Part shown: piece by piece, positions 2,075 through 41,366 of the stretch
How positions within the stretch are numbered: the stretch's first letter is position 1
Layout: every line of letters begins with the position of its first letter
DNA from: Verrucomicrobiota bacterium
GTDB taxonomy: Bacteria; Verrucomicrobiota; Verrucomicrobiia; Verrucomicrobiales; Akkermansiaceae
Assembly: GCA_004293445.1 (NCBI GenBank)
Contig: RDYP01000021.1
Span: 62,001-126,000, forward strand
DNA length: 64,000 nucleotides
Direction of reading: 5' to 3'
Notes under the pieces: generated by a model
What the model was told of the DNA's origin: nothing
The model's input: only the letters and a program-made list of their open reading frames with translations
Database searches by the model: none
Translations under genes and position numbers: made by a program

Positions 2075-3100
2075 ATGCAAACTACACCGAAATCCACAAA
2101 TCCCCTGGCCATCCGCCGGGGCAGAATCGCGCGGCCTCAGAAGGTCGTCATTTACGGACCCGAAGGCGTCGGAAAATCGACGCTCGCCGGTCAGACACCC
2201 GAACCCGTCTTCCTCGACACCGAAGGCGGCACTCACCACCTCGACGTCGCTCGCTTCGATGCGGTGACGACTTGGGAGGAAATCACCGCTGCCGTCACCC
2301 AACTCGTGAAGGCGGATCATCCGTTCAAGACGCTGGTCGTGGACACGGCCGACTGGCTGGAAAAGCGCCTGGCCGAACATCTGTGCCGGAAGTCCAACAA
2401 GGACTCCATCGAGGATTTTGGCTACGGCAAAGGCTGGGTCATTCTCACCGAGGAGTTTGCCCGGTTCCTCAGCTCGCTCGATGCCCTGCTTGCACGCGGC
2501 ATGAACGTCGTCTTCCTGGCCCACGCCACGGTCAAGAAGTTCGAGGCTCCGGATCAGGCGGGCAGCTACGACCGGTTTGAGTTGAAACTGAGCAAGTCGG
2601 TCGCGCCGCTGCTCAAGGAATGGGCCGACGTGGTCCTCTTCGCGAACTACGTCACCAAGATCGCTGAAAAGGACAACGGCAAAATGCGCGGCGTTGGCGG
2701 CAAGGAGCGGGTGCTCTTCGCCACCCATACGGCGGCCTACGACGCGAAGAACCGCCATGGACTTCCGGACAAACTTCCGTTCACCGCCGATGCGTTGACC
2801 CCGGTTTTCGGTGCGGCAGTGGAGGCAGCGGGCGCGGTGGCCGCCAAACCGGAGCCAGCAGAACCGGCAGCTTCGTTGACCGACCGGGTTTTTGCCGCGT
2901 TCCAGCACAAGGCCGACATGGCCAACGTGGTCGATTTCTTGGTCGCCCGTGGCCAGCTCAGCTACACGCAGGAAGGTTCGCTCGAATCCATCGACAACCT
3001 GGATCCGGCATACGCCGCTCGGATGCTGAGTGAGCCTGATCGTTTCGTCGCTGCCGTCAACGAGTGGGCCGCCGCCAATCAGAAGGAGGTGGCGCAGTGA
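2075..3100 (+). CDS. Sak4-like RecA-fold ATPase (phage recombination)
   Basis: This 341-residue protein has a P-loop GPEGVGKST at about residues 28-36, DTEGG at 48-52 and a Walker B-like TLVVDT near 86-91. That is the RecA/KaiC-core arrangement of AAA_24/Sak4 phage proteins, which promote single-strand annealing. The C-terminal 100 residues form a separate small domain. The open frame can begin at TTG 2051, but that TTG is the first part of a TTGACA element 18 nt before ATG 2075, which I prefer. It heads the rightward early operon and overlaps the nuclease gene by GTGA. Confidence 0.8.
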   Translation: MQTTPKSTNPLAIRRGRIARPQKVVIYGPEGVGKSTLAGQTPEPVFLDTEGGTHHLDVARFDAVTTWEEITAAVTQLVKADHPFKTLVVDTADWLEKRLAEHLCRKSNKDSIEDFGYGKGWVILTEEFARFLSSLDALLARGMNVVFLAHATVKKFEAPDQAGSYDRFELKLSKSVAPLLKEWADVVLFANYVTKIAEKDNGKMRGVGGKERVLFATHTAAYDAKNRHGLPDKLPFTADALTPVFGAAVEAAGAVAAKPEPAEPAASLTDRVFAAFQHKADMANVVDFLVARGQLSYTQEGSLESIDNLDPAYAARMLSEPDRFVAAVNEWAAANQKEVAQ

Positions 3101-6068: not shown

Positions 6069-8087
6069 ATGCCAAAATACCGATCCAATGGGCTCTCGCT
6101 GCCCCGACGCACCCTCGACTACCTGCAACGCGGGGCTGCCGAGGGAATGCGCAATGCCGAACTCTTTGATGCGACCTGTCAGTTCCGTGACGCCGGCCAC
6201 CCGCTGGAAGACACGGAAGGTCAACTTCTCGCCCGCGCACTGGCCGACGGGCTCACCGAATCCGAAGCGCGAACGACGATCCGCTCGGTCTATGCGCGGA
6301 CCTCCCGGGAACCGCTCGGAGCATCCGGGCCAATGCCCACCGCGCCATCACCTGCACCGCGTCGTTTCACGCCCGCTCCGGTCCACCGCGAGCGATCCAC
6401 CATGGCTCTGCCAGTCACCATCGACGACGGCTTTGTCAGGCTCATCGACAAGTGTTTCCAGCCAGATGAATTCGTCGCCATCGCACCGGCGGCGGAGAAC
6501 GAAGAGGGCGAAATCGTTCCTCGACGCGGTGTCACGCTGACGGCCGCCGAATGGAAATCCAAGGTGGCGGCAAAGGGCGGCGTGGACCGTGTCTTCGGCA
6601 CCAAGCTCGGGTTGTTCCTGCGCATCAACCCGATGACCAAGGGCGGCGCGAAGAACGAGGATGTGACCGCATTCCGCCATGTGCTGGTCGAGTTCGATCG
6701 CGATGAGACTGGCAAGCTGATCCCGAAGGAGGAGCAATACCACGCGGTCGTCGCCAGTGGCATGCCGGTCGCGGCCTTGATCGACTCGGGCAACAAGAGC
6801 CTGCACGCATGGATCCGGGTCGATGCGCCGGATGAGAAGGAATACAAGCGTCGGGTCGAGATCATCTGGGAATGGTTTTCCGGGATCAACCTGGACAAGC
6901 AGAACCGGAATCCGTCGCGCCTGTCGCGCTGTCCGGACGGCTGGCGGACGGTCGATGGGGAACTCCATCGCCAGGCATTGCTCGCGCTGGAATTCGGCGC
7001 GGAATCGTGGACGGCATGGGAGGCGGCACACTCGAACTCTGACCTGCCGCCGATCCTGCCCGGTCATGCCTTCATGGGCCAGCCGGAACCTGAGCCACCA
7101 CAGCTTGTCGAGGGCGTGCTTCATCAGGGGGCGAAGATGGTCCTCGGTGGCCCGTCGAAGGCGCGCAAGAGCTGGTCGCTCATCGACCTCATGCTCTCGG
7201 TGTCCACCGGCTCGCCGTGGTGGGGATTTCCGACGCGCCTGGGCCGTGCCCTGTATCTCAACTTCGAGCTGCCACCATTCGCGCTCCAATACCGGATCAC
7301 CCGGATCGCGGCGGCGAAGGAGATCGAGGACTTCACCGGCTTCGACATCTGGAACCTGCGCGGCCATGCCACCGACTTCTCCGCGCTCATCCCGAAGATC
7401 CTCGGGCGCATCCGCGACACCGGGTATTCCCTGATCCTGATCGACCCGATCTACAAGGGCCTCGGCGCACGGAATGAGAACGACGCCGGCGACATCGCCA
7501 GCCTGCTCAATGAGGTCGAGCAACTCGCGGCGAAGTCCGGAGCTGCGGCTGTCTTCGGCGCGCACTTCTCGAAGGGCAACCAAGCGGGCAAGGAGTCCAT
7601 CGACCGGATCGGTGGCTCTGGTGTGTTCGCTCGTGACCCGGATGTGATTCTGACGATGACGCCCCACGAGGACGATGATGCCCACGTCATTGACCTCACC
7701 CTGCGCGCTCTGCCGCCTGTGAAGCCGTTTGTCGTCCGCTGGTGCGAGTCGATCTTCATCACCGACCGCAACGCTGATCCTGCGGCTCTCAAGGCACCCC
7801 AGACCAATCCCAAGAGCGAGAAGGCGAAGGCGACCTACAAGATGGGCAGCGCGGCCGACCGCTACGCCAGTGCCGTCGAGACGATGCCGCCCTTGGCCAA
7901 TGGCAAGATCCCCCAGGATTCCGCCGTGCTGGCCTATGTCTCCGACCGGATTGCCGAGATCGAGGGCGACTGCACGCTCAAGGAAGCCCAGCGCGTCTTC
8001 TACTGCCTTGCCAACATGAAGAAGGGCTCACCCTTCATTTTCGACAAAGCAACTCGCCTGTGGAGGGGGCAGCGCCATGGAATTTGA
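6069..8087 (+). CDS. Primase-helicase (AEP-like primase plus RepA/AAA_25 ATPase)
   Basis: This 672-residue fusion has an N-terminal helical segment (1-90) and a primase-like domain (about 115-315) with LVEFDRD at 206-212, SGNKSLHAW at 240-248 and NPSRLSRCPDGWR at 281-293. The last three match archaeo-eukaryotic/PrimPol-type primases. A RecA-fold ATPase follows, with Walker A LGGPSKARKS (359-368), Walker B LILIDP and sensor region VFGAHFSKGN, typical of RepA-like hexameric helicases. It is the likely replication initiator, directly followed by the iteron/palindrome region. Confidence 0.85.
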   Translation: MPKYRSNGLSLPRRTLDYLQRGAAEGMRNAELFDATCQFRDAGHPLEDTEGQLLARALADGLTESEARTTIRSVYARTSREPLGASGPMPTAPSPAPRRFTPAPVHRERSTMALPVTIDDGFVRLIDKCFQPDEFVAIAPAAENEEGEIVPRRGVTLTAAEWKSKVAAKGGVDRVFGTKLGLFLRINPMTKGGAKNEDVTAFRHVLVEFDRDETGKLIPKEEQYHAVVASGMPVAALIDSGNKSLHAWIRVDAPDEKEYKRRVEIIWEWFSGINLDKQNRNPSRLSRCPDGWRTVDGELHRQALLALEFGAESWTAWEAAHSNSDLPPILPGHAFMGQPEPEPPQLVEGVLHQGAKMVLGGPSKARKSWSLIDLMLSVSTGSPWWGFPTRLGRALYLNFELPPFALQYRITRIAAAKEIEDFTGFDIWNLRGHATDFSALIPKILGRIRDTGYSLILIDPIYKGLGARNENDAGDIASLLNEVEQLAAKSGAAAVFGAHFSKGNQAGKESIDRIGGSGVFARDPDVILTMTPHEDDDAHVIDLTLRALPPVKPFVVRWCESIFITDRNADPAALKAPQTNPKSEKAKATYKMGSAADRYASAVETMPPLANGKIPQDSAVLAYVSDRIAEIEGDCTLKEAQRVFYCLANMKKGSPFIFDKATRLWRGQRHGI

Positions 8088-8147
8088 ACCCGTCATTTTA
8101 GCAGGGTTTGAACCTCGGGTGCAAATTGGTTTGAACCCATTTGAACC
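8083..8147 (+). repeat. Four TTTGAACC iterons (candidate phage origin)
   Basis: TTTGAACC occurs at 8083-8090, 8107-8114, 8130-8137 and 8140-8147, mostly extended to TTTGAACCC; two copies read TTTGAACCCGTC. They begin at the very end of the primase-helicase gene and run into the spacer. Direct repeats beside a replication gene suggest iterons bound by the primase-helicase or by the HTH protein at 8319. Confidence 0.6.
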
Positions 8148-8177
8148 CGTCGAATCTAACAGAAAAGGCCGGATTAT

Positions 8178-8259
8178 AGTAAGGCACCTTACTGTAATGC
8201 TTATGGTTTACCTAAAGGTAAACAGAGCGCGAATCGGTAAACCGAGATTCGCGCGCTCT
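8178..8259. other. Cluster of palindromes, candidate origin or regulatory hairpins
   Basis: Four inverted repeats are packed in 82 bp: AGTAAGG-CA-CCTTACT (8178-8193), GTTTACC-TAAA-GGTAAAC (8206-8223), an outer stem AGAGCGCGAATC with GATTCGCGCGCTCT (8224-8259), and within it TCGGT-AA-ACCGA (8235-8246). GGTAAAC recurs three times. The 231-bp spacer 8088-8318 has no convincing gene. An origin, a transcription-control hairpin array or both are possible. Confidence 0.6.
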
Positions 8260-8304
8260 GGTTCACCCTTGAGGGGACCAGCGCCATCAGTTTCAGATCG
8301 GCTG

Positions 8305-8324
8305 AAAGGAGGTTCAAATTGAAC
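8305..8324 (+). promoter_or_regulatory. Shine-Dalgarno and GTTCAA palindrome over a TTG start
   Basis: AAAGGAGG lies just before TTG 8319, giving one of the two strong Shine-Dalgarno sites of the prophage. The palindrome GTTCAA-A-TTGAAC (8312-8324) overlaps the ribosome-binding site and start codon and uses the same core as the TTTGAACC iterons. Binding by the product of the following HTH gene would give autoregulation; this is inference. Confidence 0.5.
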
Positions 8325-8867
8325 TCCGACGACTACTCCAAAAAGCAGTCGCTTCGGGATGCTCAGTACGAACGCGAATACGAGGCATGGGTGAAGTCCA
8401 TGACCCCGCAGGAACGGCGCGAGGCTGAGAAGCTAGGCGTGCTCAAACCCTGCGTCCAACGACACGGCAATGGAGGAGCAGAGCAAGACATGGCCGACTC
8501 AGCTGCGGCCAGCCATACGCCCGACATCGCGGCGTTGATTGACCAAGAAGGCGACCAGTCGAACGACCCACACGCTCGTGATGCCATCGAGGTGCTCCGT
8601 CACTTCGTCGCCGACCTGATCTCGGAAGGCAACACCCGGCTCACCGTCGAGTGCCTGGCCGTCGCTCTCGGACTCAGCGCCTACAACGGCGAAAGCATGA
8701 CCTCGATTGCCAAGCGCCACGGGGTCACTCGTGCCGCCGTCTCGAAGCGCTGTGTTGACATCACGCGGCAGATGAACCTTCCGCCCTCCAGGGCAATGCG
8801 CAGCGAGAAAGCGCGCAAGACTTACCGCAACTCTCAACTCAAACGATACCAGTCACAAAAATCATGA
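8319..8867 (+). CDS. Helix-turn-helix (sigma-70 region 4-like) regulatory protein
   Basis: This 182-residue protein starts at TTG 8319 behind a strong AAAGGAGG. Residues about 128-150 (SMTSIAKRHGVTRAAVSKRC) form a clear helix-turn-helix, followed by a basic tail. The N-terminal 60 residues are charged and helical. The family is not recognised. It may bind the GTTCAA/TTGAAC sites around its own start and in the flanking arrays. Its stop overlaps the next start (ATGA), so the two are coupled. Confidence 0.7.
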   Translation: MNSDDYSKKQSLRDAQYEREYEAWVKSMTPQERREAEKLGVLKPCVQRHGNGGAEQDMADSAAASHTPDIAALIDQEGDQSNDPHARDAIEVLRHFVADLISEGNTRLTVECLAVALGLSAYNGESMTSIAKRHGVTRAAVSKRCVDITRQMNLPPSRAMRSEKARKTYRNSQLKRYQSQKS

Positions 8868-9469
8868 ACACACTTACCATCAACGACCCGAAATTCTCTA
8901 TCACCCCAACCGGCATCCAGTTCAACGAGGACCTGACCTTCGAGGAATGGGACAGTCTCGGTCAAAAAATCGCTCCTATCGGAAAGTCCATCGGATTCAT
9001 TATCGGTGACTGGATCAATTATGGCGAGAACCGCTATGGTGAAATGTATGAGCAAGCACTAAAGCGCACAGGAATGGCCTACAACACCTTGGCGAACTTT
9101 GCCTATGTGGCGCGTAAGATTGAAAGTTCATTGCGCAATGAAAACCTCGACTTCACTCAGCACTACGTCGTAGCAAAACTGAAGACTGATGACGAAAAGC
9201 AACACTGGCTCAACATGGCTGAGAAGCACAATCTGAGCATCCGACGTCTGCGCAAGTCCATCAACTTCGGACGCCTCGCCACTGAAGAGGAAGCTCAGGG
9301 AGATCCCGCCGACCGTGGCTACGTCACCTACCTTGCATTGCTCAACCGCATCCGCCGTTGGTGGGCGCGTGAAACCCAGAAGGCACCCGTCGATGAATGG
9401 GACGATGATCGACGCGAAGGACTCAAGAAGGACTTCAAGCTGATCCTCGACATCTACGAGGCGCTCTAA
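8864..9469 (+). CDS. Conserved phage/plasmid-type protein of unknown function
   Basis: The 201-residue protein contains GKSIGFIIGDWINYGENRYG (about residues 41-60), then YNTLANFAYVARKIESS and an arginine/lysine-rich region. This pattern recalls a widespread family of mobile-element proteins that I cannot name with certainty. It is soluble, with no membrane segment. It is coupled to the HTH gene by ATGA and precedes the tRNA-like element by 5 nt. Composition is slightly more AT-rich than its neighbours, hinting at separate acquisition. Confidence 0.65.
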   Translation: MNTLTINDPKFSITPTGIQFNEDLTFEEWDSLGQKIAPIGKSIGFIIGDWINYGENRYGEMYEQALKRTGMAYNTLANFAYVARKIESSLRNENLDFTQHYVVAKLKTDDEKQHWLNMAEKHNLSIRRLRKSINFGRLATEEEAQGDPADRGYVTYLALLNRIRRWWARETQKAPVDEWDDDRREGLKKDFKLILDIYEAL

Positions 9470-9474
9470 CCAAA

Positions 9475-9545
9475 CGCGGGGAGGAATGTTCCAAGCGAGA
9501 TTCATACCCTCGCCCCTGCGGGTTCAAATCCCGCCCCCGCAACCA
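9475..9545 (+). tRNA. Initiator-like tRNA(CAU) with truncated D-arm, CCA encoded
   Basis: The 5' acceptor CGCGGGG pairs with CCCCGCA (9535-9541) except for a C1-A72 mismatch, the hallmark of bacterial initiator tRNA. A discriminator A and encoded CCA follow. The T-arm GCGGG-TTCAAAT-CCCGC is perfect. The anticodon loop TTCATAC (9501-9507) carries CAU on a stem CGAGA/CCTCG (four of five pairs). Only 14 nt remain for the D-arm, so it is reduced to a tiny GGAA-TG-TTCC. The 3' end matches the E. coli tRNA-fMet end closely as I recall it. It is either a functional D-arm-poor phage tRNA or a decayed one. Confidence 0.55.
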
Positions 9546-9557
9546 CTCACGATCACC

Positions 9558-9785
9558 ATGCCTCTCAACACCACGACACCAGTCCACAGGGTCACACGCA
9601 TCCTCCGCGAAGGAGCGCGGCTGATCGCTGTGCAACATGGGCAAGCCAGCATCGACGTGACACCCGACATCATCGCCATGCTGGACGGGGTTCAATCGGG
9701 TTCAAATGGATTCGAACCCATCAAGGAATCTATTGAACCCTTGATAGCTGGCAGGGAGGTCCGCACCGGTGTCCATTTCCCGTGA
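9558..9785 (+). CDS. Small hypothetical protein
   Basis: A 75-residue frame from ATG 9558 begins shortly after the tRNA-like element. Its N-terminal half (VHRVTRILREGARLIAVQHG) reads like a real protein. Its C-terminal half is encoded by DNA carrying GGGTTCAA/TTGAACCC repeats, so sequence there may serve DNA binding as much as coding. No recognisable domain. No Shine-Dalgarno was seen. Confidence 0.4.
   Translation: MPLNTTTPVHRVTRILREGARLIAVQHGQASIDVTPDIIAMLDGVQSGSNGFEPIKESIEPLIAGREVRTGVHFP
9688..9740. repeat. Second GGGTTCAA/TTGAACCC cluster
   Basis: GGGTTCAA occurs near 9688 and 9698 and in the opposite orientation as TCGAACCC (about 9712) and TTGAACCC (about 9733). Arms TCAAGG (9721) and CCTTGA (9739) form a further inverted repeat. 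This mirrors the 8083-8147 iterons, with the pair flanking the 8319-9469 genes. Confidence 0.5.
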
Positions 9786-10730: not shown

Positions 10731-11537
10731 TCAGGCAGCGAGCTTCTTTGCCCGCTCGGTGTAGAATTTGGTGAGGCCCTTGGCGTCAATGGCTTGGAAG
10801 AACCACTTCATGCGGTTCATCCCGAGGCCGGTATCCACCGGGCGGTTGCGGACCGTAGCGGCGGCCTCGGCGGCGTCGAATAGGCGGGCCATCAGTCGCA
10901 CCCAGTTGGTGATCTTGGCGGGATCGGTCGTTCCCGAGTGGTGGCGGACCTCCAGCGTCTGATGGCGGAAGTAGGATTGGACGTTCAGCTTGCGATAGCG
11001 GCAGGGGTAGAGCTGCTTCATCTGATCCATGTTCTTGCAGGCGTCGATCTTGCGGAAGACCCGAGAGCATTGGCCTCTGTGGTCTTCGCTGTCGGAGACT
11101 CCGCTTTCGAGGTTCGTGCGGCAGTAGGTGTTGGTGTTCCCCCGGCGGGACTGCGGCTGGAACGCGTCCAGAACATCCTCGAATTTGAGCCAGAGTTTGA
11201 AGAGGTTCTTCACCGCTTTGAGATTCATCGAGCGGGCATCGAAGTGGACATGAAGTCCGCATCGCTTGTCCACCTTGGCTCCGGCGGCTTCGAGTGCGGC
11301 GGCGGCGATTCTAACTTCCTCGATACCGGCTTCACCTTCGAGGACTGGTGAGACGAGCTCCAGACCGCAGGAACCATCAGTGACGACCTTCCAATAGGGC
11401 GTGGTGTCGTGAGTGTAGTGAGTGGATTCGACTCGAATGCCTGCGGCTCTCAGGCTCATGACGGCTTGCTCTTTGGTGATGGTGGAGAGGAATTCGATCT
11501 CGACTCCGAAGCGGCGGGACATTGTCGGCGTTGTCAT
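10731..11537 (-). CDS. Putative amidoligase (ATP-grasp-like, PF12224 type)
   Basis: The 268-residue protein begins with RFGVEIEF, then DGSCGLELVSPVLEG, CGLHVHFDA, TNTYCRTN, and YRKLNVQSYFRHQTLEVRHH. These are the conserved blocks of the COOH-NH2 ligase/glutamine-synthetase-fold amidoligase family, predicted to form amide bonds on peptides or cell-wall material. ATG 11537 (MTTPTMSRRFG) is preferred; the frame is open to 11561. It runs against the flanking phage genes, as expected for an acquired accessory cassette. Upstream (11562-11802) lie paired hairpins rather than a gene. Confidence 0.8.
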   Translation of the reverse strand: MTTPTMSRRFGVEIEFLSTITKEQAVMSLRAAGIRVESTHYTHDTTPYWKVVTDGSCGLELVSPVLEGEAGIEEVRIAAAALEAAGAKVDKRCGLHVHFDARSMNLKAVKNLFKLWLKFEDVLDAFQPQSRRGNTNTYCRTNLESGVSDSEDHRGQCSRVFRKIDACKNMDQMKQLYPCRYRKLNVQSYFRHQTLEVRHHSGTTDPAKITNWVRLMARLFDAAEAAATVRNRPVDTGLGMNRMKWFFQAIDAKGLTKFYTERAKKLAA

Positions 11538-11614
11538 GGTTAATATCTGCCATGGTGCCACCTCACGTCTATGGCTAAGTGGAGTTAGACAACGAAAGAT
11601 GGAAAAACATTACG

Positions 11615-20431: not shown

Positions 20432-20458
20432 CCCGCCGTTGACGTGGGTGGAAGGACT

Positions 20459-22279
20459 GTGAATGTCCTGAAAGCAATTTGGCGAGAGGCGTGGCAACCG
20501 CCTGACAGAAGGCCTCCGTGGGAGTGGTGTGAGGATCACATCGAGGGCATTCCGTATTCGCCCAACCCAGGCCGATTCCGGTCGGAAAACTCGCCATGGA
20601 TTCGCGAGGTGATGGAGACCTTGGTCGATCCCCGTGTGCGCCTGGTTTCGATCATCGCGTCGGTCCAGTCATCAAAGACCACGGCCCCGGAGCTGACGCT
20701 CTGCTACATCATCGCCAACCTGCCCGGGCCGACGCTCTGGCTTGACCAGACGGACGAAGACGCCCGCGACTATTCCGAAGCGCGACTCCAGAAACTCTTC
20801 GACCAATGCCAGCCGGTAGCGCGGCTCATGCCCACCGGCATTCATCGCCACAAGCGCAAGAACAGCGCCATCCATTTCAACAATGGCATGGTGCTCTGGA
20901 TTCTCGGGGCGCACAACAAGACCAACCTGCAGCGCCGTTCGATTCGCTGGTTGGTCGGCGATGAAACCTGGCGATGGCCAGAAGGTCACATGGCGGAAGC
21001 CGAGGCCCGCGTCACCGCATTCGGCTGGCTTGGCAAGTGCATCTTCATGAGCCAAGGCGGAGAGGAGGATGACGACACCCACCGGAAATTCCTCACCACC
21101 GACCAACGCGAGTGGACGTTTGCCTGTCCCGAGTGCGGTCACCGCCAGCCGTTCAAGTGGGAATGCGTCGAGTGGAGCAAGTCGGCCAGGGATGAATTCG
21201 GCGATTGGGATTTCGACGAAGTCCGGCGCACCACCGCTTTGCGCTGCGAGTCGTGCAACCACTACTTCAGCGATGGCGAGCGCACCCGCCGCGAACTCAA
21301 TGCCACCGGTGCCTTCGTGGCGAAGAATCCAAAGGCATCAAAGGAAAACGTCGGCTTCCACTGGAACGCGCTGTGCGCAATGAGCTGGGGACAGTTGGCC
21401 GAACTCTACCTGCGGGCGAAGTCGGCTGCACGGAAGGGAGACGTTTCGCTGCTCCAGCAGTTCTATCAGAAGCGCCTCGGCCTGCCATGGCGCGAATACG
21501 TCGAGGACTACAAACTCGAAATCACCAAGTCCGGATACAAGCGCGGTGAGACCTGGGAAGAGGAAGGCGCGATCGATCCGAAGACCGGTCGCATTCTCGC
21601 CGCCCCGTTGCCCGAACGCACCGGCCTGATCCCACTGCGCTTCATCACCGTTGACTGCCAGATGGATCACTTGTTCCTGGTGGTCCGCTCCTGGTCGGCT
21701 GAGGGATCAAGCCGCCTGATGTGGAACGAGCGCATCCTGACCTTCACGGACATCGACGTGATTCAGGAACGCTTCGGCGTGCATTCGAGCCTCGTGTTCC
21801 TGGACGCCGGCTATGCGACTTACGACGTCTATCGCGAGTGTGCCAAGCGCGGTTGGGTCGCGCTTATCGGAGACCGCCGCCCGGTCTATGCTCACAAGGG
21901 ACGCGACGGCAAAACCGTCCAACGATTCTACTCGCCCCGGCGCAAGGTGGTGCTGTCGCATAAACAGTCGTGCCATGTCCACTACTGGAGCAACCTCAAC
22001 ATCAAGGACACCCTCGCTCGCCTTCGCCGCAATCAAGACCCTTCGCAAGGCCCGACGTGGGAGGTTCCTGACGACATCGACGACGACTACCTCGCCCAGA
22101 TGGAGAGTGAGCAGCGAGTGAAGGAAAAAGGCCAGTGGATGTGGAAGCAGATCGGCTCGCGACCGAATCACTACCTGGACTGCGAGGCGGAACAGGCTGC
22201 TGCCGCAACCATGCTCAAGATCGTCGGGCGCGAGGCTGTAGCGGCAGTGCCCGTTGACAGCTCCGACGGGGAGTCATGA
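20459..22279 (+). CDS. Terminase large subunit (GpA family)
   Basis: The 606-residue protein has ATPase and nuclease parts: ASVQSSKTTA (Walker A-like), RWLVGDETWRW (Walker B), FMSQGGEEDDDTHRKF, a zinc-ribbon CPECGH...CESCNH, and nuclease residues FITVDCQMDHLF and SLVFLDAGYATYD. It packages DNA into the prohead. GTG 20459 is preferred because TTGACG stands 14 nt upstream; the frame opens from GTG 20444. It overlaps the next gene by ATGA. Confidence 0.92.
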   Translation: MNVLKAIWREAWQPPDRRPPWEWCEDHIEGIPYSPNPGRFRSENSPWIREVMETLVDPRVRLVSIIASVQSSKTTAPELTLCYIIANLPGPTLWLDQTDEDARDYSEARLQKLFDQCQPVARLMPTGIHRHKRKNSAIHFNNGMVLWILGAHNKTNLQRRSIRWLVGDETWRWPEGHMAEAEARVTAFGWLGKCIFMSQGGEEDDDTHRKFLTTDQREWTFACPECGHRQPFKWECVEWSKSARDEFGDWDFDEVRRTTALRCESCNHYFSDGERTRRELNATGAFVAKNPKASKENVGFHWNALCAMSWGQLAELYLRAKSAARKGDVSLLQQFYQKRLGLPWREYVEDYKLEITKSGYKRGETWEEEGAIDPKTGRILAAPLPERTGLIPLRFITVDCQMDHLFLVVRSWSAEGSSRLMWNERILTFTDIDVIQERFGVHSSLVFLDAGYATYDVYRECAKRGWVALIGDRRPVYAHKGRDGKTVQRFYSPRRKVVLSHKQSCHVHYWSNLNIKDTLARLRRNQDPSQGPTWEVPDDIDDDYLAQMESEQRVKEKGQWMWKQIGSRPNHYLDCEAEQAAAATMLKIVGREAVAAVPVDSSDGES

Positions 22280-39564: not shown

Positions 39565-39831
39565 TCATGCCACGTCGATTCGGTATTTCTTCCGAATGGC
39601 GTCCATGACCGCATCGACCTCATAGAGGAAGAGTCGAGGCGTCATTTTGATGCAGGGGATTTCCCGACGTTGAACCCACGCATCAATCGTGTGAGGGCTA
39701 ACGGAAAGCAGCTTGGCGAGCTCCTTCTTTTTGATCAGGACCGGCTGATTCGTCACTGGAGCACCGTTCGGAGGATTCGAGTGGCTGCTGTTCATGGTCC
39801 GGTTGGTATTGGATTGGATAATGGCTTTCAT
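39565..39831 (-). CDS. xis: Excisionase-like HTH protein
   Basis: An 88-residue protein with KKKELAKLLSVSPHTIDAWV (HTH_17/AlpA-like helix-turn-helix) and RREIPCIKM, typical of excisionases and small mobile-element regulators. ATG 39831 overlaps the integrase stop (ATGA); TTGACA lies 19 nt upstream on this strand. An internal ATG (MNSSHSNPPN) is possible. It would direct integrase toward excision. Confidence 0.75.
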   Translation of the reverse strand: MKAIIQSNTNRTMNSSHSNPPNGAPVTNQPVLIKKKELAKLLSVSPHTIDAWVQRREIPCIKMTPRLFLYEVDAVMDAIRKKYRIDVA

Positions 39832-41156
39832 TGTTGCGCCGGGTTGGAGTTGTCAACAGATGGTGACCCATGTTTAGCCAGCGCCCGCACCAGGCGGTCC
39901 CGCAGGCTGAGGTTTAGTCCGACCGGCATCCAGCCATCGGGCGGCATTATCCCGAACCATGCCCGGGCGGCTTCCTCGTCCACGATTTCCCGGTAGTGGC
40001 GGAAGATCATTTTCGGGGAGTTGCCAGCCTCCAGAGAGGTTCGAGCGACGTCGCCTGTCAGTGATACTCGATAGCTGATGAACGAGTGTCTGAGGGCATT
40101 TTGACGCCATCCACCGGGGATCCGCGCTTTCACGGCGGTATCACCCAAGGCACCCGATACATCGCTGATGGTGATGATGGGGCCAGTTTCCTGACGCCAT
40201 GGGGCAAGCCAGGCCTTGAGATTCTCGGGGAGGGGGACAAGCCGTCTCGCAGCCGTCTTCGCCTTGTGGCCGGCGATCTCGATGTGGCCGCGATCCCACT
40301 TGATGTCCTGCCAGGTGAGACGTTCGACCTCTGCCGACCGAATTCCGCAAAACCCGCCGATGGCGATGAGCGGCAGAATGCGTGCGTGAGCGGCGAGCAG
40401 GATGTCACGCATCTCGTCTGGCGTGAAAATCTCGATCTCCTTCTCAGGCTCCTTGAACGAGTCGCTCTGCTCTGCAGCCGTCTTGCGGTCTGGATGGAGG
40501 TATCCCTGTTTCTTGGCGAATCCGAACATCGTAACGATGTTGCGCCGGAGGCCGTTCTTGCTGACTGGACCGAGGCTCTTGAGACCATCGAGGAAACGAT
40601 TGATGTCGGCCACGCTCACATCGGCGATGTTGCCCGGCATGGCGTCGGTGAACCGCTTGAGGCTGCCGGTTGCGTTCCTGACGTAGATGTCACTCACGCC
40701 CTTGCGTTTCAGCGACACGACGAACTCAGCGGCCACCTGGACGTTGGTCCGGACTGCGAACAGGTCGGCCCGGTTCGCCTGATAAAATCGCACGGCATCG
40801 GACAGCGGGATTTCACCGGCAGCTTTTCGTGCGCTGGCCCATTCGTCCATCGCGGCGGCAAGACCGACGCCGTGCTCTCGGGCCACTTGCTCGCAGTGGC
40901 GGAACAGGTCGATGTCGCGGCGGGTCACCTCGTCGCCAGCTATCCAGCCGTTGGTCAGTCGGACGCTGGTCTGCTGGGCGATCATCCGAGCTTCTTCCAT
41001 GGACGAGAAGCTGCGAATCTTTCGCTTGCCTGCCTCCTTCCATGCCAGGGTGAACTCGGGGTAGCCGTCCCGACGGTTCATCGTGTAGATCTTGATTCTC
41101 GCGGGACCGTTGCCGATTTCCACGATGCTGCTGCGACGTTTGCGCTTACGGGTCAT
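39828..41156 (-). CDS. int: Tyrosine integrase
   Basis: The 442-residue protein has the catalytic blocks GFCGIRSAEVERLTW (Arg I), AGHKAKTAARRLVPL (Lys), NALRHSFISYR (HxxR region with Arg II) and IFRHYREIV (Tyr nucleophile). ATG 41156 (MTRKRKRRSS) is chosen: TTGACT stands 15 nt upstream on this strand (41172-41177), and the frame's TTG 41177 is part of it. It faces tRNA-Ser about 120 bp away, so it integrates the element there. Confidence 0.92.
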   Translation of the reverse strand: MTRKRKRRSSIVEIGNGPARIKIYTMNRRDGYPEFTLAWKEAGKRKIRSFSSMEEARMIAQQTSVRLTNGWIAGDEVTRRDIDLFRHCEQVAREHGVGLAAAMDEWASARKAAGEIPLSDAVRFYQANRADLFAVRTNVQVAAEFVVSLKRKGVSDIYVRNATGSLKRFTDAMPGNIADVSVADINRFLDGLKSLGPVSKNGLRRNIVTMFGFAKKQGYLHPDRKTAAEQSDSFKEPEKEIEIFTPDEMRDILLAAHARILPLIAIGGFCGIRSAEVERLTWQDIKWDRGHIEIAGHKAKTAARRLVPLPENLKAWLAPWRQETGPIITISDVSGALGDTAVKARIPGGWRQNALRHSFISYRVSLTGDVARTSLEAGNSPKMIFRHYREIVDEEAARAWFGIMPPDGWMPVGLNLSLRDRLVRALAKHGSPSVDNSNPAQQ

Positions 41157-41273
41157 AGACCCCGGCTTTCGAGTCAACTTGTCGGAAAACCTGTCAGAAA
41201 AATCTGTCGCGGTTCGCCCTGAGGGCTCGCAAGTCGTTGATGGTGAGCTGGTTGCAGTGAATTGGCAAACAGA

Positions 41274-41366
41274 TGGCGGAGAGAGTGGGATTCGAACCCA
41301 CGGTAGGTGTTAAGCCTACGTTCGATTTCGAGTCGAGTGCCTTAAACCGAGCTCAGCCATCTCTCC
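41274..41366 (-). tRNA. tRNA-Ser (anticodon CGA), prophage attachment site
   Basis: Acceptor GGAGAGA pairs with TCTCTCC, followed by discriminator G and encoded CCA (41274-41276). Anticodon loop contains CGA, and the long variable arm is characteristic of serine tRNA (90 nt without CCA). The 3' end faces the integrase gene; the attachment core is expected within its T-arm/acceptor, where phage DNA restores the tRNA end. Confidence 0.92.

Follow-up and report, generated by a model that had tools for sequence, protein, structure and literature searches.

Is the 71-nt element at positions 9475–9545 of the window, within a verrucomicrobial prophage, a genuine tRNA gene, and would its product serve in the initiation of translation? 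The window, by which we mean the whole 64,000-nt stretch of DNA analysed, had been described in a first-pass annotation as holding at this place a phage-borne, initiator-like tRNA(CAU) with almost no D-arm. The phage setting is borne out by the prophage genes around the element, namely a gpA-type terminase (20444–22276), a lambda-type portal (23538), a P22-type coat (26236, slightly below the Pfam cut-off) and a tape measure (30893). A helicase and an AAA/primase-like protein are encoded further upstream of the element, and its immediate neighbours, its parts and the integrase of the prophage are as follows.

8319–8867, forward strand: HTH-like protein (read from the sequence); directly precedes up201 and is a conserved neighbour
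8864–9469, forward strand: upstream gene up201, 201 aa; stop codon 5 nt before the element
9475–9545, forward strand: initiator-like mini-tRNA(CAU), whole; 71 nt with the encoded CCA, 68 nt without
9475–9481, forward strand: 5' acceptor strand CGCGGGG; C1 unpaired with position 72
9482–9494, forward strand: reduced D region, 13 nt; linker A, hairpin GGAATGTTCC (9483–9492), linker AA
9495–9513, forward strand: anticodon arm GCGAG / ATTCATACC / CTCGC (from the fold); 9-nt loop, or 7 nt with a 31·39 mismatch
9503–9505, forward strand: anticodon CAT (CAU), from the sequence
9518–9534, forward strand: T-arm GCGGG TTCAAAT CCCGC (from the fold); all cells paired in 27 copies
9535–9545, forward strand: 3' acceptor strand CCCCGCA, then discriminator A73 and encoded CCA, from the sequence
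9558–9785, forward strand: small ORF dn75, 75 aa; starts 83 nt past the first base of the element
39828–41177, reverse strand: phage integrase of the prophage; adjoins tRNA-Ser(CGA) at 41274–41366

Neither up201 nor the HTH-like protein has a Pfam or PHROG match, and a scan for promoters and terminators returned nothing above chance.

Divided into its parts, the element reads CGCGGGG-A-GGAATGTTCC-AA-GCGAG-ATTCATACC-CTCGC-CCCT-GCGGG-TTCAAAT-CCCGC-CCCCGCA-A-CCA, with C at position 1 (9475) opposite A at position 72 (9541) and ACCA encoded at 9542–9545. The minimum-energy fold of 9475–9544 (last A omitted) is a four-arm cloverleaf of −30.3 kcal/mol (z −3.95; shuffled sequences have a mean of −19.1 with a standard deviation of 2.8, and 0 of 200 are as good). 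The presence of a real, initiator-like four-arm cloverleaf at 9475–9545 is thereby confirmed, as are the intact T-arm (9518–9534), the encoded CCA, the CAU anticodon, C1 facing A72 and the length of about 68 nt (68 without CCA) that had been noted earlier. The first-pass annotation also likened the 3' end closely to that of the E. coli initiator. The D hairpin of the window copy forms as GGA(AUGU)UCC in the fold, or alternatively as GGAA(UG)UUCC. Only a single base (A) separates the acceptor stem from the D-arm, so that U8 is absent, and positions 31 and 39 never pair, so that the anticodon loop has either 9 nt, or 7 nt with a closing mismatch.

Standard tRNA detection does not recover this structure. 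In the window, ARAGORN called tRNA-Ser and tRNA-Pro and nothing else, and a search with the Rfam tRNA family (RF00005) returned the same two genes alone, leaving the element below the cut-off. A laxer Rfam scan gave at the element only tRNA-Sec, at 16.8 bits on the same strand and 17.9 bits on the opposite strand, against a cut-off of 47. Model R1, which was built partly from the window sequence, scores the window element at 94.2 bits. Run over 79 sources, the covariance model sets 44 matches at or above 73 bits apart from other CAU tRNAs, which score at most 68.1 bits.

Using the up201 protein as query, we collected 11 loci on genome contigs (9 of them verrucomicrobial, on 8 contigs) and 36 on viral contigs. 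The first collection of copies required TCAT; the search was later repeated blind, requiring only a T-arm and a six-pair acceptor stem and leaving the anticodon, positions 1 and 72, and CCA free. The blind search places the element after up201 in 39 of 45 loci, made up of 31 of the 36 on viral contigs and 8 of the 9 verrucomicrobial ones. Every one of the 39 copies has CAU and an unpaired 1·72 (C·A in 38, C·T in 1), and A73 is present in 36 and CCA in 35. The same gene therefore recurs in related phages, and the outcome that would have told against the first-pass annotation, namely scattered fragments in relatives, clearly did not materialize. Locus L052 has lost CCA, pairs G2 with T71 and looks decayed at its 3' end, and three loci (L063, L065, L082) end in CTA instead of CCA. 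The blind search found no element after up201 in L039 (on the same contig as L034), L075, L077, L078 and L081, and model R1 gave no match in the last four, which are distant up201 carriers; L083 was counted as missing, its contig ending 57 nt past the up201 match, too early to tell. As L034/L039 lacks the element, it is dispensable there. The genome carrying this contig (G053) has a full-size extra CAU tRNA with C1·A72 (L036, 1476–1551; L230, 7767–7842), whose anticodon arm and T-arm are nearly identical to those of the mini-tRNA; it adjoins a tRNA-Arg and a terminase-like ORF, and the up201 locus there (L034) is without a mini-tRNA.

A pattern scan enlarged the set of relatives, giving 67 stretches, and a regular expression fits 81 loci with 38 distinct sequences, a contig fetched twice being counted twice. 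Relatives with named records belong to Verrucomicrobiaceae, Akkermansiaceae and other Verrucomicrobia metagenome-assembled genomes. Among 387 genomes of the phylum searched with R1, 11 had matches, close copies (94–98 bits) being confined to the window's own genome and G029; G007, which carries a copy (L033), was not among these matches, being either not drawn or lost to stricter filters. The other nine matches scored 50–61 bits, six of them with D regions of 17–19 nt and one (L172) without assignment. By eye, the remaining two of the nine, from another family of the order, contain miniature-D CAU elements (L165, 1501–1573; L170, 1501–1572), and position 33 of the latter is C, not U. When annotated phages were searched with the window query, 48 records matched it in part; no match reached 80% coverage, and the best one listed covered 48%.

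Sequence comparison marks the element as a genuine phage tRNA gene under selection. In alignment A3, which comprises 27 distinct copies and leaves out L052, 534 of 538 base-pair cells (99.3%) are standard pairs, and 7 of the 20 pairs, with each of the four helices represented, have changed on both sides. Of five covariation measures, four, including the paired fraction and two-sided changes, were reached by 0 of 500 shuffles, while 61 of 500 reached the remaining one (further pair types); when partners were slid as a control, pairing fell to 43–59%. The T-arm helix, of 5 bp with a TTCRANT-type loop, is paired in all cells of the 27 copies (100%), and the D helix in 97.2%, with two-sided changes in three of its four pairs. 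Across the family, the D-arm is a covarying hairpin of 10–12 nt preceded by one base (A in 27/27); its loop contains GG in 22 of 27 copies, the remaining type, to which the window copy belongs (5/27), having TG with a single G. The first-pass annotation was thus right that the D-arm is strongly reduced, the D region having 13 rather than 14 nt, and wrong in calling the tRNA nearly D-arm-less, because a D hairpin, though miniature, is maintained through compensatory changes. Mean pairwise identity is 0.90 for the element versus 0.75–0.78 for up201 (21 loci) and 0.49 at the third codon positions of up201 (ungapped, 18 of the 21 loci).

This pattern bears directly on whether the element could be a degenerate copy, left either by integration at an att site or by capture of a host tRNA that became a pseudogene. 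Phages often leave tRNA fragments on integration, according to the accessible part of PMC9897764, ARAGORN makes no call at the element, and L052 looks decayed. Such an origin would not explain two-sided changes in each of four helices, the D-arm included, or conservation above that of up201, and the integrase adjoins tRNA-Ser(CGA) at 41274–41366, 32 kb from the element; we consider a degenerate copy extremely improbable. An integration remnant was accordingly rejected: the helices covary, the attachment-site tRNA is tRNA-Ser, and the element is not at a prophage end beside the integrase. With that attachment-site tRNA 32 kb away, the element is not a scar of integration. No left attachment site was detected, the tRNA-Ser 3' end occurring once in the window (at most 3 mismatches); elsewhere in the own genome it has a single match, with 2 mismatches, on contig C5. 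A host tRNA origin was also rejected, as none of the 30 compared of 44 own-genome tRNA matches is close and the best BLAST matches are short.

We next compared the element with bacterial tRNAfMet. The two share CAU, an unpaired 1·72, A73, G2-C71, C3-G70, G30-C40 and a standard T-arm. In contrast, the element has a D region of 13–15 nt before the anticodon stem, compared with about 18–19 nt in the initiator, lacks U8, leaves 31·39 unpaired and has a 9-nt anticodon loop. Among the distinct copies, 1·72 is never paired (0/27; C·A 26, C·T 1), as in the full set of loci (0/39), and A73 and the 3' CCA are each present in 26 of 27. Together with CAU in 39/39 loci, this upholds the earlier description of the acceptor end and anticodon as initiator-like.

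The anticodon stem agrees with that of initiators in part. The three consecutive G-C pairs at 29–31/39–41 are not present: pair 30-40 is G-C in 27/27, pair 29-41 is A-U in 26 and G-C in 1, and 31·39 is paired in 0/27. Four initiators, from the own genome (L028) and from others of the order or class (L035, L168, L169), have A29-U41 and keep G31-C39. The unpaired 31·39 is a second oddity of the element, because anticodon stems of four pairs, a feature it shares with some other bacterial tRNAs, are nearly absent from bacterial tRNAfMet, with only 82 such cases among 50,849 in the part of PMC13092985 available, in which reduced D-arms do not come up. Outside the window family, 31·39 is unpaired in L249, G-C in L133, and a T·G pair in L202 and several others. 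The canonical cloverleaf with U8, N9 and a D-arm of about 15–17 nt was likewise not found. An A11-U24 pair in a four-pair D-stem is a feature of bacterial initiator tRNA, and the D-stem of the element is too short for certain numbering of this pair. A stem of three G-C pairs and a D-arm of normal size were both looked for and are absent, and we therefore class the element not with the canonical initiator tRNAs but as a new, initiator-like variant.

The position of the element raises a different possibility, namely that a tRNA shape acts in cis within a polycistronic mRNA, as a mark for RNase P or RNase Z or as a control on translation of the next ORF. In 21 measured loci it begins 5–8 nt past the up201 stop, and matches to dn75, in the loci that have them, mostly set in 77–105 nt past the first base of the element (359–466 in L040, L044 and L048). 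However, the element follows up201 at 122–260 nt in eight loci (L038, L051, L052, L053, L054, L055, L072, L074), in six of which (all except L052 and L053) other sequence separates the two by 122–243 nt; dn75 was undetected in some relatives that retain the element (e.g., the L033 group), and the same form stands amid other genes in L133 and L202. A cis-acting shape would, moreover, need no conservation of the anticodon or of the 1·72 mismatch, and we regard this explanation as very improbable.

We then scanned for C1, GCAACCA, CAU and a short D region, which gave at least 120 matches. A structural filter on the newly fetched loci (L231 on) retained at least 49 elements, 9 of the hairpin type and 40 D-armless. 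The constancy of C1, A72, CAU and CCA in these other-phage and D-armless sets is no evidence, because the search pattern demanded them. One of the nine hairpin-type elements among the matches listed (L318) belongs to the window's own family. The D hairpins vary widely (e.g., GGTGC-TGG-GCACC, GTCCT-TG-GGGAC and GGGC-CGGT-GCCC), and L133, which encodes a portal (phrog_156) and a head protein (phrog_283), and L202 have the same layout as the window element. In a comparison of 2.5–14 kb stretches at an E-value of 1e-5, no protein common with the window prophage was detected in L133, L202, L232, L238, L249, L260, L263, L277, L165, L170 or L354; L257 and L304, which are mutually close, match it weakly once or twice, over about 96 residues. 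G30-C40 is present in 9 of 10 such elements (L133, L202, L232, L249, L257, L260, L263, L277, L304) and broken in L238. Single-sequence folds are weak in some loci (z −0.06 in L238, −1.49 in L235, −1.47 in L249), and the minimum-energy fold differs from the expected cloverleaf in L260, L133 and L267, which argues against a uniform stability. ARAGORN does call several hairpin-type elements (L133, L249, L257, L260, L263, L277, and L232 with shifted ends). The hairpin-type query L277 had no match among annotated phages. The first-pass annotation had also linked the tRNA to an odd start-codon element; we found no evidence for this linkage, and the form also occurs in phage contigs without a detected common protein (e.g., L133, L202, L249).

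The D-armless elements (class B) among the matches listed comprise 40 loci and 26 distinct sequences. They resemble the window element in C1·A72 (demanded by the pattern), CAU, a 13-nt D region and a weak 31·39, and differ in having a conserved NTCAGG linker without a D hairpin, in lying mostly beside other tRNA genes and in belonging to other phages. In alignment A4, which contains 25 of the 26 distinct sequences (L305, 70 nt long, was left out), 96.4% of cells are paired, 12 of 18 pairs show two-sided changes, and all five measures were reached by 0 of 500 shuffles. Among the matches listed, 31 of the 40 class B loci have between 5 and 38 tRNA calls. ARAGORN, run on 27 class B loci, did not report a single D-armless element as a tRNA; its tmRNA calls in L231 and L285 overlap the start of the element. 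Queries of annotated phages with two class B elements matched Limnohabitans phage DC31, and one of them also matched a full-size annotated tRNA-Met of a Rhizobium phage. In DC31, an isolated phage (L329, PQ492658.1), an unannotated D-armless CAU element with A1-U72 and U73 lies at about 3000–3070, between tRNA-Pro and tRNA-Tyr in the annotated tRNA cluster.

These loci also help to judge whether the window element might be an oddly shaped elongator tRNA-Met or a lysidine tRNA-Ile(CAU), to which its CAU anticodon would be suited. The paired 1-72 end expected of an elongator was found in 0 of the 39 copies, whereas 26 of the 29 distinct other CAU tRNAs at class B loci among the matches listed have G1-C72 (24) or G1-T72 (2). 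An elongator is therefore highly improbable. Two of the remaining three start with G and have no CCA end, and one (L305) is full-size with C1·A72. As these other CAU tRNAs mostly have G1-C72 or G1-T72, the D-armless element is the only initiator-type tRNA detected in most of the class B stretches covered.

To what extent is reduction of the D region limited to initiator-type tRNAs? Under one rule applied to viral loci L231–L328, a D region of at most 15 nt was found in 19 of 236 distinct tRNA-like sequences among the matches listed, comprising 17 of the 22 CAU tRNAs with a 1·72 mismatch versus 2 of the 214 others; short-D CAU elements were the basis on which these loci had been picked, which inflates 17/22 and leaves 2/214 as the only fair rate. 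A scan open to any D size gave at least 120 loci, of which 117 were examined, 11 being without a fit and one having two elements. Among the matches listed, 10 of the 107 fitted C1·A72 CAU tRNAs have D regions of 13–16 nt and the other 97 have 17–20 nt. Such full-size viral CAU tRNAs (e.g., L131, L331) share C1·A72, CAU and CCA with the window element, but these features were demanded by the pattern, and some of the contigs may be prophages or flanking host DNA with host initiators. Among the 97 full-size elements listed, G30-C40 is present in 95 and the three initiator-type G-C pairs in 12; thus, the full GGG/CCC stem is not a rule in them, and the 30-40 pair is.

The best explanation of the window element, and one that we consider probable if far from assured, is a phage initiator-type tRNA that would be charged, formylated, barred from taking part in elongation, and employed in the P site. 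The element is probably transcribed together with the upstream replication genes, and its RNA would be cut out by host RNase P and 3' processing, CCA being already encoded. CAU and A73 predict charging with methionine by the host MetRS. Formylation would be permitted by the unpaired positions 1 and 72, and G2-C71 and C3-G70 also match; the same 1·72 mismatch would bar EF-Tu. Binding in the P site may proceed through the retained G30-C40. Links of these signatures to charging, formylation, EF-Tu exclusion and the P site are established for the E. coli initiator in the accessible parts of PMC2268962 and PMC11497404; according to these, mutants of the initiator G-C pairs initiate poorly in E. coli, and the latter adds that C1-A72 is required for formylation and that pairs 30-40 and 29-41 are touched by 16S A1339 and G1338. 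The tRNA could then start phage proteins, replacing the host initiator or acting beside it, for example when the host initiator is limiting or attacked. Initiators are not delivered to the A site; this may explain why loss of the D-arm is tolerated in this class and rarely in the other tRNAs of phages. The small D-arm may reflect relaxed constraint on a tRNA that stays out of the A site, or may serve to evade host enzymes or to alter the choice of start codon, and the missing U8 and tiny D-loop could impair folding or modification. Codon supplementation does not fit, because a tRNA over the Rfam cut-off was found in only 3 of 32 viral records searched whole, each 85–90 nt long, some of the records being fragments.

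Attack on the host initiator also underlies an alternative that we consider unlikely, in which initiation is not the main job of the RNA: with its altered anticodon loop and small D-arm, it would act as a sink for, or a resistant replacement against, host factors that target initiator tRNA, such as VapC-type nucleases or AtaT-type acetyltransferases. The anticodon loop is indeed altered (31·39 unpaired in 27/27), as is the elbow, usually no second tRNA is detected in the phage record, and the part of PMC10264068 available cites a proposal that phage tRNAs escape nucleases through changes in the anticodon loop. The same portion of that source states, however, that phages generally avoid tRNA-fMet where VapC cuts the anticodon. 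A pure decoy would need neither G30-C40 (27/27) nor an encoded CCA (35/39), and the D-armless forms are the initiator-type member beside full-size tRNA sets, which points to use in translation.

If the phage initiator-type reading holds, it may extend further. Tentatively, and with more doubt than confidence, we propose that initiator tRNAs of the phages' own, lacking a normal D-arm, have arisen repeatedly in many phage lineages, initiators escaping the constraints of elongation; this could give the phages a separate initiation channel, with looser choice of start codons and protection from host factors that read the elbow or the anticodon loop of the host initiator. To our knowledge, reduced-D-arm tRNAs are known mainly from mitochondria. 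The D-arm-deficient tRNAs of metazoan mitochondria are a precedent for the reduction, but serve other amino acids and are neither initiators nor phage-borne. Bacterial tRNA-Sec, with a 6-bp D-stem and a 4-nt loop in the accessible part of PMC7609411, is a precedent for a small D-loop, again serving another amino acid and neither an initiator nor of phage origin. Among titles and the beginnings of abstracts in the open-licence literature, there was no report of phage initiator tRNAs with a reduced D-arm.

An initiator-type tRNA with a covarying D-arm of 10–12 nt, together with its D-armless counterpart, would reveal how small a part of the tRNA structure suffices for bacterial initiation, and would let phages influence that step. 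The idea that initiators, unlike elongators, can afford to lose the D-arm is now directly testable. Phage tRNA sets may also be under-annotated exactly at the initiator, because ARAGORN and the Rfam cut-off miss the window element and ARAGORN misses the D-armless elements of the 27 loci.

Several further features of the neighbourhood were noted. The start of the HTH-like ORF is a TTG inside GGTTCAAATTGAAC, directly after AGGAGG (window position 8319), the relatives having ATG or TTG. The words GGGTTCAA and TTGAACCC occur in 10 copies in the 64 kb, versus 1.84 expected in the whole window, and 7 of the 10 lie within 1.7 kb, clustering at 8082–8319 and 9520–9740; one copy is the T-arm of the element itself. 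A similar word occurs 86 times at 1.0–2.0 kb upstream of the element in 27 related loci, and the words are possibly operator or origin repeats. An antisense ORF (9435–9695, reverse strand) reading 'GRDLNPQGRGYESRL' is the translated complement of the tRNA and is probably spurious. About 1 kb downstream, an Amidoligase_2 gene (10734–11561, reverse strand) with two conserved neighbours of 92 aa is present, and these lie near the element in many relatives.
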